64,000 nt of DNA from Marinicella sp. (GTDB lineage: Bacteria > Pseudomonadota > Gammaproteobacteria > Xanthomonadales > Marinicellaceae). Made by a program: the position numbers and the translations under genes. The notes under the pieces are model-generated. The model searched no databases. It was not told the origin of the DNA and saw nothing but the letters and a program-made list of their open reading frames with translations. The stretch covers positions 1 through 64,000 of the forward strand of contig JANQRW010000085.1 in assembly GCA_028284365.1 (NCBI GenBank), read 5' to 3'. Below are positions 9,351 to 15,882 of this stretch, piece after piece (the first letter of the stretch is position 1; each line of letters begins with the position of its first letter).

Positions 9351-11582
9351 TTGATTGAAATGAAAGATGCCATAAAATCAAATTCGAAATCCAAATTTCA
9401 GTCCATTTTTCTATTGTCATTGGCTTTCATGCTAGCCGGCTGCCAGTTAAATTATCCAGCAAAACACAAAGGTGCCTTAACCATACAACAAACCACTGTA
9501 GAACAGGACTTACTGAGCCTAAATCCACAGCAAGCCATTGAAGTGATTGAATCACTTAACTTTTCTACATATGACCCATCTGAGCTGGTTAAATTAAGAA
9601 ACCAAAACCACCACACTATATATAAAATCTCAATCGATAATTTTCCAAGTGAGGTATCAGAGGCCACCCTCACTTTGCTACCCAAATACTTGGCCGAAGT
9701 CAGTTATGCCCAATACTCAGGAACCACCGGTTTAAGTCGCTGGAAAACCCAATACCGCCACAAAAGCGACAGTAACCGCTACTTCTCCAGTGAGAAATTT
9801 GCTTTTAATATCAATGACAACGAAATTCCTCATACCCATTACTTATTACTGCGGGGAACCAATAACCTACATTTACAGTTTGAGCTGGTTGATACCCAAT
9901 CATTCATCAAAGCTGATGCACAATTCAGTCACTTTCTAACGGTGGTTTACAGCATCGTATTGGCATTGATTTTATTCAATACAATTTTTTACCTATACAA
10001 CCGAGACACTTCTTACTTACTGTATATTATTTATTTGACTACAACACTTTATGCATTGTTGTGGCAAGAAGGAAAAATCAATCAATTACCTGCTTTGGCT
10101 TTTTACTTTCTGGGCGATAGAAGTGGTATTTTTTATTTTATGGTTTCAGACTTGGCAGCCATCGCTTTTTTCTATCACTTCATGCATTTGAGCATCAAAA
10201 ACAGTTGGTTAGCACGATTGGTGATACTGACGGTGTTATTCAAGATTGGCCTGTTGTTGACTTCACTGCTGCAATACCATGTTCTGGGCCATTTTTATTA
10301 TGAAACCATCAGCAGTTTATTCAATCTCAGTGTCATCATTAACTGCATTGCCATATGGATAATCTTGTTGCTTAAAACCTGGCAAAAATATCCGCAAGCC
10401 AAATACTTATTTTTTGCATGGTCGATTTTAATTGCTACCGTTTTTTTACGTATTTACTATATTCTTAATCCAAGGCCTGAGCTTATTTGGATGCCACACA
10501 GTTATGAAATAGGGGTAATGCTTGAAGGTCTGATATTGGCGTTTGCAATGGCCAACCGAACCATGAAATTTAAAACTGAGCGAGACCAAGCCATCAGTAA
10601 ATATGCAGCTGCTGAAAGGTCGGCTTTTGAACATCAGTTAATTACCGACTTTCAACTTGAAACTCAAGAGATAGCCAAAAACCCCACACTGAGCGAAGAT
10701 GAAGTTTTAGAAAAAATAAACATCAAATTTCATTTATTGATGAACAAAGCCTTCCCTATACAAAGTTCCTTGATCAAGGATGGGGACTTACTACAAACCA
10801 TTTGTGCCAATGGTTTAACTGATCAAGATATACCAGCTATTGAAAAAGAACTGGTCAAGTTAAGAAACCATCATAACCAAGTAAAAAGGTTCCAAATCAA
10901 CAGCACCAAACAAGAAAAGCAACAGTTTCTGATGGTACCTCTTGGCCAAGAAGCCAAAGATGTGCTGCTGATCTTCGGCCTAAAGCATAGCCAACCCATC
11001 AGTCAAGATTTAATCAACGACCTCAAATCATATAGTCAAATTTCTTACACAGCACTGTTACAGGCATTCAAGACACATAAAGTGGCATTGGCTGCTAATT
11101 TAGATTCCATGACTCAGATTCACAACCGTGGCAGCATAGAAAAGGTCATTGAAAGTTCTTTGAAAAATCACAGCCGTACCACAGTTGCTTATATAGATTT
11201 AGATGACTTAAAAGACATCAATGATAAATATGGACATCACATCGGTGATCAGTGCATCATTGAATTGGTGGAAACGTTGGCCAAGGAACTTGAATCAATG
11301 GCCAAACTTGGTCGCATTGGTGGTGACGAATTCATTGCTGTTTTTTCTGACATAGAGTTAGAGCGATCCGAAGCCATGTTCGAACATTTATTTGAAATAA
11401 TAAATACGGCAAAATTTTCTGAGTCCAGTTTGAAAATCACCCTAAGTATTGGACTGGCTGAATCACGAATCTATGAAACCAAAGAATCTTTATTAAAAAA
11501 AGCTGATGTGGCACTTTATCATGCCAAAAAACTTGGTAAAAACCAACTGGTAGAATATGAACCTCGATTAGAAACTGAATAA
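9351..11582 (+). CDS. 7TM-DISM diguanylate cyclase (GGDEF)
   Basis: 743-residue membrane sensor that would make cyclic di-GMP. Order of parts: an N-terminal hydrophobic segment with lipobox-like LAGC (28-31), a periplasmic 7TMR-DISMED2-type beta domain (about 50-190), seven membrane helices (about 195-400), a GAF-like linker domain, and a C-terminal GGDEF domain. The active-site GGDEF is at 657-661, within GRIGGDEF. The RxxD inhibitory site expected five residues before GGDEF is absent (ESMA in its place), so product inhibition through that site is unlikely. The start is TTG at 9351: AGAGGA (9336-9341) sits 9 bases upstream, whereas the next ATG (9360) would be 18 bases away. No EAL domain is fused. 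The inducing signal is unknown. Confidence 0.88.
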   Translation: MIEMKDAIKSNSKSKFQSIFLLSLAFMLAGCQLNYPAKHKGALTIQQTTVEQDLLSLNPQQAIEVIESLNFSTYDPSELVKLRNQNHHTIYKISIDNFPSEVSEATLTLLPKYLAEVSYAQYSGTTGLSRWKTQYRHKSDSNRYFSSEKFAFNINDNEIPHTHYLLLRGTNNLHLQFELVDTQSFIKADAQFSHFLTVVYSIVLALILFNTIFYLYNRDTSYLLYIIYLTTTLYALLWQEGKINQLPALAFYFLGDRSGIFYFMVSDLAAIAFFYHFMHLSIKNSWLARLVILTVLFKIGLLLTSLLQYHVLGHFYYETISSLFNLSVIINCIAIWIILLLKTWQKYPQAKYLFFAWSILIATVFLRIYYILNPRPELIWMPHSYEIGVMLEGLILAFAMANRTMKFKTERDQAISKYAAAERSAFEHQLITDFQLETQEIAKNPTLSEDEVLEKINIKFHLLMNKAFPIQSSLIKDGDLLQTICANGLTDQDIPAIEKELVKLRNHHNQVKRFQINSTKQEKQQFLMVPLGQEAKDVLLIFGLKHSQPISQDLINDLKSYSQISYTALLQAFKTHKVALAANLDSMTQIHNRGSIEKVIESSLKNHSRTTVAYIDLDDLKDINDKYGHHIGDQCIIELVETLAKELESMAKLGRIGGDEFIAVFSDIELERSEAMFEHLFEIINTAKFSESSLKITLSIGLAESRIYETKESLLKKADVALYHAKKLGKNQLVEYEPRLETE

Positions 11583-12673: not shown

Positions 12674-12774
12674 TTTTTTGACCAAAGTAAAAGGGGTTGC
12701 TTATTGTAACTGATGCTCAAATTTTGATGTAGATGAATGTTGGTTATTTTTTGATACCATGCAGAAAAATATCT

Positions 12775-12802
12775 TTGTTAATTTGTATATACAGTATATA
12801 CT
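12775..12802 (+). promoter_or_regulatory. Leaderless promoter with palindromic operator for NTase/RHH pair
   Basis: TTGTTA (12775-12780), a 16-base spacer and TATACT (12797-12802) form a good sigma70-like promoter. Predicted transcription start is about 12809, next to the ATG at 12810, so the message would be leaderless. The spacer contains the perfect palindrome TGTATATACA (12784-12793), followed by a second GTATATAC (12794-12801) that overlaps the -10. This is the layout expected for an autorepressor, here probably the ribbon-helix-helix protein encoded downstream. The motifs are seen; the repressor assignment is inference. Confidence 0.6.
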
Positions 12803-12809
12803 TATACTT

Positions 12810-13271
12810 ATGTTTCTTTTAGATGTTTGTCAAGCCTTGGACGATTCTGAAGTCAACTATGCTGTGGTTGGTGGTTATGCTGTCGCACTTCATGGTGCAG
12901 TCAGGGGAACAGTTGATATAGATTTAATTGTCAAATGGCAGAAACAACAATTAATTCAGTTAGAAGAAGCCATGCAAAATCTGGGACTTGTGTCCAGACT
13001 GCCTGTTGATGCTGAAACCATGTATGCATTCAGAGATGAATACACCAACAACCGAAACTTAATCGCTTGGAATTTCTATCACCCGAACGATGCCTCAAAA
13101 CAAATTGATGTCATCATCAATTATGAACTCAAGAGGCAGCCCCTCATTGAAAAAAAAATCAATGCTCAAAACATAAAAATTCTTAATCGAAAAGATCTGA
13201 TTCTAATGAAACAAGCCGCTAACCGCCCTCAAGATATCGAAGACATCAAAGCATTAAAAAGCATAAAATGA
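12810..13271 (+). CDS. Small minimal nucleotidyltransferase (possible toxin-antitoxin component)
   Basis: 153-residue stand-alone polymerase-beta-type nucleotidyltransferase related to AbiEii/MNT-like families. The motif GGYAVALHG followed by the DID pair in GTVDIDLIV supplies the glycine turn and metal-binding aspartates. A further acidic residue in KQIDVIINYE probably completes the site. An upstream in-frame ATG (12759) would add 17 hydrophobic residues and would start before the predicted -35, so ATG 12810 was chosen; it also lines up the fold as in related proteins. The gene overlaps the next by ATGA, so the two form a coupled pair. Either NTase-as-toxin or NTase-as-antitoxin arrangements are known in other modules; which applies here cannot be told. 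Confidence 0.72.
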   Translation: MFLLDVCQALDDSEVNYAVVGGYAVALHGAVRGTVDIDLIVKWQKQQLIQLEEAMQNLGLVSRLPVDAETMYAFRDEYTNNRNLIAWNFYHPNDASKQIDVIINYELKRQPLIEKKINAQNIKILNRKDLILMKQAANRPQDIEDIKALKSIK

Positions 13272-13519
13272 AAACATTACAAATTCACAAACCTGAAATG
13301 ATTGAAATAGGCCAACAAATGAGCCCTGAACAAATCGCACGCTTTTTAGAAGACTTCAGGTTGCTTCATAGCAAAACCATGACCGAAAAAACCACACCCA
13401 TCAGCATCAGAATTCCTGAGAATTTGTTACGCCTGTTCAAAGCTCAATGTAAACAGCAAGGTTTAAAGTACCAAACTCAGATTAAAGAACTTATGAAATC
13501 TTGGATTAAAATCAATTAA
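13268..13519 (+). CDS. Ribbon-helix-helix (CopG/BrnA-like) DNA-binding protein
   Basis: 83 residues. The C-terminal half has the ribbon-helix-helix pattern: a beta strand PISIRIPENLL, a helix with KAQCKQQGLKYQT and a second helix QIKELMKSWI. The N-terminal 45 residues are helical and charged, as in the toxin-binding arms of RHH antitoxins. It overlaps the NTase gene by four bases (ATGA), and only 8 bases separate its stop from the convergent panD stop. The likely operator lies in the promoter of the pair. Its role as antitoxin and autorepressor is inferred from gene organisation. Confidence 0.7.
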   Translation: MKTLQIHKPEMIEIGQQMSPEQIARFLEDFRLLHSKTMTEKTTPISIRIPENLLRLFKAQCKQQGLKYQTQIKELMKSWIKIN

Positions 13520-13925: not shown

Positions 13926-14699
13926 TTACTCCTGATTGATTTTGTATGCCAGATACAGTCCTTTGAGGACCAAATCTGGAATGATTTCGTTAAAGATACC
14001 GGCATTTCTGAATATTGAAGTGAAACCGCCAGTGCCTATGATAAGTGGTTGATTACCTTTGAAAGACTTCTGCTTAAGTCCATGAATGATTTCTTTGATC
14101 GCTCCACGGGCACCATAAAACAAACCTGATTGAATGCTTTCATTGGTGTTGCGCCCCAAGACTTCCTCGCGTTCAACTATTTCCACTGAACCAAGCTTGG
14201 ACGCCCCTGATTCCAGTGCTTTCATTGACATTTTCATGCCAGGCATGATGACCCCACCCAGGTATTTTTTTTGTGCTGAGATGGCACAAAATGTGGTTGC
14301 TGTACCCAAATCGATTACGATCGCATCCTGGTTAGGAAACAGATGGGTAATTGCAATGGCATTGGCGATTCTGTCAGCCCCCACTTCCAGCGGGTTGCGA
14401 TAGCCAATTTGTAAACCAGTTTTAACGCCTGCTTGAAGTACGAATGGTTCTATACCAAAGTATTTTTGACAACAGGCATTGATAGGGTACAACACTTCAG
14501 GCACCACCGAACATAATGATATGGCTTCAATATCAACGTGGTTGATATTGTTTTCTCGCAACACACTTCGAAGAAAAACCCCGTATTCATCAGATGAAGC
14601 ACCTGTTTTGGAAGCCATTCTAAATTGAACTTTTAATTCATCTCCATCAAATACACCACCATGCATGTGGCTGTTTCCAATATCCAAACATAAAATCAC
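13926..14699 (-). CDS. coaX: Type III pantothenate kinase
   Basis: 257-residue ASKHA-fold kinase that phosphorylates pantothenate, the first step from vitamin B5 to CoA. Visible motifs are the N-terminal DIGNSH nucleotide loop, GADRIANA, IDLGTATTF and GGVIMPG. This is the CoaX type, not the CoaA of enterics. Its ATG overlaps the coaB stop by four bases, and panD follows after 5 bases. Confidence 0.95.
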   Translation of the reverse strand: MILCLDIGNSHMHGGVFDGDELKVQFRMASKTGASSDEYGVFLRSVLRENNINHVDIEAISLCSVVPEVLYPINACCQKYFGIEPFVLQAGVKTGLQIGYRNPLEVGADRIANAIAITHLFPNQDAIVIDLGTATTFCAISAQKKYLGGVIMPGMKMSMKALESGASKLGSVEIVEREEVLGRNTNESIQSGLFYGARGAIKEIIHGLKQKSFKGNQPLIIGTGGFTSIFRNAGIFNEIIPDLVLKGLYLAYKINQE

Positions 14700-15355
14700 G
14701 CGGCCACCTCCTGCTGTTTCACAATCTCATCCGAGAGGTGTTGAATGTGATCACATTGGATAGAGGTAACCTTTGAATGCAATTCAAAAGTGTGGATTTT
14801 ATCGCAAATATCATTGAGGTCGTTATGAGCCACAAAATCTATGGCTTCTTGTTTGATCAATTTATCAACAGCAGCTTGACGAACAGCCTGCTCCTTTGAA
14901 TTGGTGAGTTTGAAAGCCACCACCAACAATTCTGAGTTTTTCGACCAATGCTTTAAATTTGAAACTAACTTGGGCTGTTTCATCAGCTGTAATTGCACAT
15001 CATCTGCAGTTGGCAGTTTAACTCCCCTACCGGCTTGAAATTCCTTACCATCTAATAAAACCGAAGAAACTTTAAAATCACTCACCGCTGCTGCCTGAAA
15101 GACCACGTCAAATGGTTCACTGGATAAAACTTGTTTTAATTCTCTGGCCAAATCCTCAAAAGTCTCATAACTTATTTGCTCTACTTTACTTGCAGGCTTT
15201 ACCGCAGTTTTTGCACCTAACCAAGTAACTTCATGACCCTGTGCCGACAGGTGGTCACACAACACTGCTCCAGTGTTGCCACTGCTACAATTACCAATAT
15301 AGCGTACCCCATCTATGTATTCTTTGGTTCCCCCCGCAGTCACTAATACTTTCAT
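14696..15355 (-). CDS. coaB: Phosphopantothenate-cysteine ligase, stand-alone CoaB
   Basis: 219 residues matching only the CoaB half of the usual CoaBC fusion. It joins 4'-phosphopantothenate to cysteine with nucleotide activation. Family marks are LVTAGGTKEYIDGVR, NCSSGNTG (the nucleotide-binding N-x-SSG loop), FQAAAVSDF, VVAFKLT and the conserved asparagine of FVAHNDL. The GNTG and FKLT variants differ from the enterobacterial fusion form (SSGKMG and FAAET). It overlaps coaC upstream and coaX downstream by four bases each. Separate genes imply that the ligase and decarboxylase assemble as two polypeptides. Confidence 0.9.
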   Translation of the reverse strand: MKVLVTAGGTKEYIDGVRYIGNCSSGNTGAVLCDHLSAQGHEVTWLGAKTAVKPASKVEQISYETFEDLARELKQVLSSEPFDVVFQAAAVSDFKVSSVLLDGKEFQAGRGVKLPTADDVQLQLMKQPKLVSNLKHWSKNSELLVVAFKLTNSKEQAVRQAAVDKLIKQEAIDFVAHNDLNDICDKIHTFELHSKVTSIQCDHIQHLSDEIVKQQEVAA

Positions 15356-15882
15356 ACGTGTTGCTCCACAACTGTTAATATATCTTCAATTTCTGGCATC
15401 CGCCCAGCACCACGTTCTCCACAGGCTAAATCCCCCTGTGCAGGCGGCATGATGTTGATACCCCATGCTTTCAATGCATTAATGGCTGACTGTGTGGCAG
15501 GGTATTGCCACATCATGGTGTTCATCGCTGGTACAATCACCAAAGGTTTTTTCAATCCATATGCCGCCACAAAAACGGTGGTAACTACATCATCAGCAAT
15601 GCCCGCAGCTAGTTTGTTGATCACATTAGCTGTTGCTGGACAGAGGATAATTTGATCAGCCCAGCGGCTCACATGTATATGATCCATCATGGCACCCGAT
15701 TCATACACTGAAGTCATTACTGGGTTTTGGCTTAATCCTTCTAAAGTGGCTTCACCAACAAAATTCAATGTAGCAGGCGTACATACCACCTTGACTTCAT
15801 CACCTTGTTTAACCCAAGTCGAGATCAATTGGGTGGCTTTGGCACAGGCAATTGACCCTGACATCATCAGTAACCGTTTCAC
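15352..15882 (-). CDS. coaC: Phosphopantothenoylcysteine decarboxylase, stand-alone CoaC
   Basis: 176-residue flavoprotein that decarboxylates 4'-phosphopantothenoylcysteine to 4'-phosphopantetheine. Visible marks are GSIACAKA at the N-terminus, the catalytic-histidine segment HIHVSRWAD, the FMN-binding LCPATANVINKLA, the PAMNTMMW clamp and ACGERGAGRMPE with the active-site cysteine. It ends where the CoaC domain ends in fused CoaBC, and the ligase follows as a separate gene with an ATGA overlap. Confidence 0.92.
   Translation of the reverse strand: MKRLLMMSGSIACAKATQLISTWVKQGDEVKVVCTPATLNFVGEATLEGLSQNPVMTSVYESGAMMDHIHVSRWADQIILCPATANVINKLAAGIADDVVTTVFVAAYGLKKPLVIVPAMNTMMWQYPATQSAINALKAWGINIMPPAQGDLACGERGAGRMPEIEDILTVVEQHV

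Follow-up and report, generated by a model that had tools for sequence, protein, structure and literature searches.

Among described bacterial systems, the closest to the gene pair considered here is MenAT1 of Mycobacterium tuberculosis (Rv0078B-Rv0078A), in which a small antitoxin acts on the toxin through its N-terminal helix (PMC10435456, PMC11375011); residues T39, D41, K137 and D152 of the toxin, MenT1, have been studied (PMC11375011). In the type IV AbiE system (AbiEi-AbiEii), an NTase-fold toxin is combined with an autorepressing antitoxin that binds inverted repeats in the promoter (PMC3985639, PMC7319586). Minimal nucleotidyltransferases (NTases) are also found in the mobile two-gene MNT-HEPN units (PMC2701414), and toxin-first operons with a ribbon-helix-helix (RHH) antitoxin are represented by BrnTA and other type II pairs with CopG antitoxins.

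The pair described here lies in a 64,000-nucleotide stretch of Marinicella DNA (the window) and, in our assessment, probably constitutes a mobile chromosomal toxin-antitoxin module with a MenT1-like NTase toxin, an RHH antitoxin, autoregulation and a leaderless transcript. Its small NTase shares the core fold and the aligned active-site residues of MenT1 (T39, D41, K137 and D152 there), but MenA1 reportedly has no DNA-binding domain and is encoded before the toxin, whereas the predicted antitoxin here carries an RHH domain, is encoded after the NTase and has its own conserved operator. With AbiE it shares an NTase-fold predicted toxin and a putative autorepressing antitoxin with repeats in the promoter; AbiEi, in contrast, is a larger two-domain protein and not an RHH protein, whereas the partner here is short, and the match of our NTase to the AbiEii/DUF1814 model, which is also that of the MenT toxins, stays below the Pfam cutoff (PF08843; 13.2 versus 22.5 bits). 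The toxin-first order and RHH antitoxin recall BrnTA, except that the predicted toxin is a nucleotidyltransferase of the DUF6036 family rather than the RelE-like RNase BrnT, while MNT-HEPN units differ in that there is no HEPN partner here and the roles of the two genes appear reversed. The components are of known kinds, and their combination was not found in the non-subscription literature searched: no paper in it named DUF6036, and none joined nucleotidyltransferase, 'CopG family' and toxin-antitoxin.

The nucleotidyltransferase and its ribbon-helix-helix partner

The NTase is encoded at positions 12810-13271 of the forward strand (153 aa) and the RHH protein at 13268-13519 of the same strand (83 aa), with ATGA as the overlap; both reading frames and the overlap are as given in the initial annotation. 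An alternative in-frame ATG at 12759 would extend the NTase to 170 aa, but in several related loci (e.g. L005, L007 and L010) the frame is closed just 5' of the aligned start, which supports the start at 12810. The RHH protein, predicted to be both antitoxin and autorepressor, falls into an N-terminal helical part (approximately residues 1-35, SPEQIARFLEDFRLLH; 13268-13372, forward strand), which is the predicted NTase-neutralising element, and a predicted C-terminal DNA-binding domain (approximately residues 43-83; 13394-13519, forward strand).

The NTase passes the curated DUF6036 cutoff (PF19502; 40.3 versus 23.6 bits), and all ten members of set A1 match this family. Its AlphaFold2 model (pLDDT 90.6) has MenT1 structures as the best PDB matches in Foldseek, followed by LnuA and ANT(2'')-Ia, and a family profile finds MenT1 at an E-value of 9e-6. 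Hemagglutinin segments, the top PDB matches when the single NTase sequence was searched, were chance similarities over about 23 residues and were gone in the profile search. The aligned catalytic residues are T34, D36, D38, D100, K134 and D145, among which T34, D36, D38, K134 and D145 correspond to T39, D41, D43, K137 and D152 of MenT1, on the assumption that the deposited chain starts one residue late. All 37 clade members have T34, D38, K134 and D145; D36 and D100 are each replaced in two of the 37, and a few NTase copies may therefore be inactive. The NTase is most likely a MenT1-like toxin, predicted to transfer nucleotides, perhaps to the 3' ends of tRNA, and thereby to stop growth, with tRNA ends being the best guess for the target by analogy with MenT1.

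The partner is modelled with moderate confidence (72) and has no significant structural match, but the top ones are all to RHH proteins (MatP, ParG, Arc, PutA and CopG). At E-values up to 0.1, all 14 partners tested match Pfam CopG_antitoxin and 13 of the 14 match BrnA; the window protein itself reaches 28.5 bits against the CopG_antitoxin cutoff of 28 and stays below that of BrnA. A HEPN match to the partner was not found. Distant DUF6036 NTases (L047-L060) are mostly followed by a helical-looking protein of 55-90 aa with an 'LTP..RL.W.E'-like motif and no RHH domain, and such pairs possibly represent a wider, uncharacterised toxin-antitoxin superfamily. The FLEDFR helix may be homologous to the small proteins, lacking an RHH domain, that accompany these more distant NTases, but the signal is no more than suggestive (hhalign E-value 0.0089, probability 4.6%).

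A predicted promoter with an embedded putative operator

The predicted operator consists of palindromic 8-mers arranged as GTATATAC-A-GTATATAC at positions 12785-12801 (GTATATACAGTATATAC) and spans the promoter spacer and the -10 element, just as the initial annotation had described palindromes filling both. It is the sole match in the window at two or fewer mismatches (none in 100 shuffles), occurs once in the whole 3.1-Mb genome and is conserved in the NTase-RHH clade. The half-sites are separated by 1 nt in the window and by 2 nt in most relatives, corresponding to centre-to-centre distances of 9 bp in the window genus and 10 bp in most loci; the 2-nt-spacer form has no match in the window genome, since its genus uses the 1-nt spacer. 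Such half-site spacing would allow two RHH dimers to bind the same face of the DNA, as is known of RHH repressors. One viral contig contains an exact match to the operator, situated between reading frames of phage structural type and with no NTase; we set it aside, since by our estimate one such match is within chance for a collection of that size.

The -10 element TATACT (12797-12802, forward strand) is made of the second half-site plus one base and ends 7 nt before the ATG; in most loci it likewise equals the second half-site plus T. A weak -35-like hexamer, TTGTTA (12775-12780, forward strand), lies 16 nt before the -10, and matches to a -35 across homologs are barely above the control (3.32 versus 2.92 of 6). 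By consensus alone, promoters of this quality occur at chance level (3 found, 3.6 expected). What raises this one above chance is conservation: in 22 of 26 related upstream regions the -10 is fused to the operator and sits exactly 6 nt (16 regions) or 7 nt (6 regions) before the start codon, the spacing being absent at L044/L045, L030 and L033. With sigma-70 geometry, a gap of 6-7 nt places +1 on or beside the A of the ATG, in agreement with the earlier prediction that transcription starts at the ATG. Ribosome-binding motifs are mostly absent at the module loci. Because of the conserved position of the -10, we regard a leaderless, toxin-first transcript as a putative conserved feature of the family, its start being predicted from the -10 spacing.

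Across relatives, the operator is present at two or fewer mismatches in 16 bases at all 23 loci of the first set that have a full NTase, a full RHH gene and upstream sequence (the window locus included), and at each of them none of 500 shuffles of the same 90 bases reached such a match. The consensus was derived from this first set, and 13 later loci then served as a test; the NTase of L123 is identical to that of L029 and was treated as a duplicate, leaving 12 independent further loci. Five of these, all RHH-bearing, carry the operator at two or fewer mismatches (L115, L121, L129, L130 and L132), and a subclade of five (L124-L128) has one or two half-sites at wider spacing, a degenerate variant assigned by eye that fits the canonical pattern poorly (3-4 mismatches). 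The operator is absent at L131 and L133. As far as sequence comparison goes, the operator appears to track the RHH domain, both being lost together on two branches, in keeping with the autoregulated module suggested in the initial annotation. The Leptospiraceae NTase copies L031 and L032 are internally deleted or frameshifted and have no operator.

Distribution and genomic setting

The partner gene lies directly 3' of every complete clade NTase that is readable downstream, and the expectation of co-occurring pairs in other genomes was borne out in this way. At a loose threshold the NTase is matched in 19 of 61 relatives, some of these matches being distant; among 18 genomes of the window genus it is intact in three (the window genome, G012 and G004) and interrupted in G001 and G002. 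Close relatives of the NTase also turned up in scans of the class, order, phylum and database, and in other proteobacteria, as in Myxococcota, related NTases come with the same RHH partner and operator in unrelated flanks. In a maximum-likelihood tree the paired NTases form one clade (100/100), apart from the DUF6036 NTases with RHH-less small partners. One clade member comes from a Myxococcota record, and for this reason the NTase-RHH pair has probably crossed phyla, to judge from the sequences.

In the window genome the module sits between an ilvE-type aminotransferase gene and panD. The core metabolic neighbourhood noted earlier therefore holds in this genome, but it is no fixed setting of the module: the flanks differ in nearly every genome except sister species. 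Two close relatives preserve the empty site, with ilvE and panD adjacent and about 100 bp apart in G003 and the ilvE end beside panD in G016. The patchiness agrees with the variable presence that had been anticipated, and universal conservation among relatives, as of housekeeping genes, which would have spoken against a toxin-antitoxin module, was looked for and is not the case. A bicistronic unit of two small overlapping genes that is patchy and mobile is what characterises type II toxin-antitoxin systems, and the pair is of this kind. Many toxin-antitoxin pairs occur on plasmids, in phages and in viral contigs; no relative of the module was found in tblastn searches of plasmids and phages or in two scans of viral contigs, a point against the toxin-antitoxin reading. 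At the module, neither a transposase nor a target duplication was seen.

Two features of the neighbourhood deserve mention in their own right. At 14696-15882 of the window, CoaB-like and CoaC-like halves are encoded by separate overlapping genes that adjoin a type III pantothenate kinase gene and panD, while CoaB and CoaC usually form one CoaBC fusion. In two species of the window genus, panD is matched twice per genome (L074/L083 in G010 and L070/L082 in G011).

Short partners, unequal loss and a proposed mechanism

At three loci with an intact NTase the operator is gone and the RHH half of the partner is lost, leaving short partners of 48-58 aa. The partners at L131 and L133 are about 50 aa long and end after QYFSPEYL..C..LTP.QIV.FLEDFR, whereas at L003, in the window genus, the partner is cut to 58 aa, with the helix kept. 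According to the tree, this RHH-less, operator-less state must have arisen twice independently. L131 and L133 belong to different genera and have both retained the short partner, which speaks against simple decay. The joint loss of RHH domain and operator beside an intact NTase would place neutralisation in the N-terminal helix and autorepression in the RHH domain. On the simplest reading of these sequences, the N-terminal 'FLEDFR' helix would be sufficient for the NTase to be tolerated, and the operator would be retained only while an RHH domain is present to read it. Neutralisation by direct binding of the partner is likewise suggested, indirectly, by the short RHH-less partners. Directly after the short partner, L131 and L133 carry a gene that by eye resembles the HIT family (MSDCLFCKIIEGEIP...), whose enzymes can take off nucleotide adducts.

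Loss of the two genes is unequal. RHH genes persist without an NTase in G005, G023 and G027, the last having two copies of which one contains an internal stop. An operator was not found in the vicinity of these genes. Conversely, no intact clade NTase was seen without the N-terminal part of the partner. That the RHH gene survives without the NTase, and never an intact NTase without the helix, is the asymmetry that a toxin and its antidote predict. Wherever close pairs allowed dN/dS to be calculated, it is low for both genes. A lone RHH antitoxin-like gene lies directly after a GGDEF gene near panD at L110 (G005) and L111 (G015; a remnant), and this GGDEF gene is a distant homologue (31-33%) of that at 9351-11582 of the window.

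In G001 and G002 the NTase is interrupted at the same site by a 265-bp element (L020:1636-1900 and L021:1636-1900, respectively), and the RHH gene is open. The element is multicopy with inverted ends of about 35 bp and is 97% identical between the two species, as against 84% for the upstream flank; 13 matches to it are listed for G002, some of which are the element against its own reverse strand. An intron was considered and dropped, given a multicopy inverted-end element with several copies per genome for which Rfam gave nothing convincing. The C-terminal fragment of the interrupted NTase is still at low dN/dS, which simple inactivation of a toxin does not account for.

Several other accounts of the pair need to be weighed. 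The NTase could be a resistance-type enzyme that modifies small molecules, similar to ANT(2'') or LnuA, with the RHH protein merely its transcriptional repressor. It does pass the curated Pfam cutoff for ANT(2'')-type enzymes (Aminoglyc_resit; 24 versus 21 bits), and both LnuA and ANT(2'')-Ia are among its next fold matches; but DUF6036 and MenT1 match more strongly, the protein lacks a second domain that could take a drug-like substrate, and a pure repressor leaves the helix-only, operator-less partners on two branches unexplained. We therefore consider this unlikely. That the NTase is instead the antitoxin, modifying and silencing a toxic partner as in MNT-HEPN, has a precedent in the minimal NTase antitoxins of HEPN toxins (PMC4621449), yet the partner here is a predicted DNA-binding RHH protein and not HEPN, and its genes persist without an intact NTase, which is unexpected of a toxin; the reversed assignment strikes us as highly improbable.

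We give just as little credence to the idea that the pair has been domesticated for regulation, with NTase and RHH protein setting the expression of neighbouring pantothenate or amino-acid genes. Its appeal lies in the position between ilvE and panD in the window genome, against which stand the single operator in that genome, located at the module's own promoter, the changing flanks, and the intact panD of relatives that lack the module. The pair may also derive from a toxin-antitoxin module and have been kept for some other function.

Returning to the toxin-antitoxin module, the sequences themselves show the pairing, the operator, the distance from -10 to ATG, the patchy occurrence and the joint loss of RHH domain and operator; we infer the toxicity and its target, the protein complex, the repression and the transcript start in the following scheme. 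RHH dimers would occupy both GTATATAC half-sites, which are roughly a helical turn apart and lie on the -10, and so block RNA polymerase. The transcript would begin at the toxin ATG or within about 1 nt of it, which would make the toxin mRNA leaderless, and the antitoxin would be translated by coupling through the ATGA overlap. Its N-terminal helix (FLEDFR) would bind and inhibit the NTase, either by covering the active site or, MenT1-like, by promoting phosphorylation of the conserved threonine. When the antitoxin falls, the promoter would open and the toxin would be made first.

A bolder proposal, which is possible but which we hold to be somewhat doubtful, is that these loci form a separate cross-phylum family with a leaderless toxin-first message and separable antitoxin helix and DNA-binding modules, the latter lost together with the operator, in which an antitoxin of about 50 residues still controls an active NTase, perhaps by inducing phosphorylation of T34, as MenA1 does with T39 of MenT1.

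If the module is what it appears to be, the repertoire of NTase toxins would gain an antitoxin of RHH type together with a leaderless operator-promoter that is complete in itself. Natural pairs with and without the RHH domain and operator would separate neutralisation from autoregulation with no need for mutagenesis, and the operator could be used as a handle for finding further members. Finally, the toxin-first leaderless layout would offer a direct way to test what leaderless translation contributes to the release of toxin.
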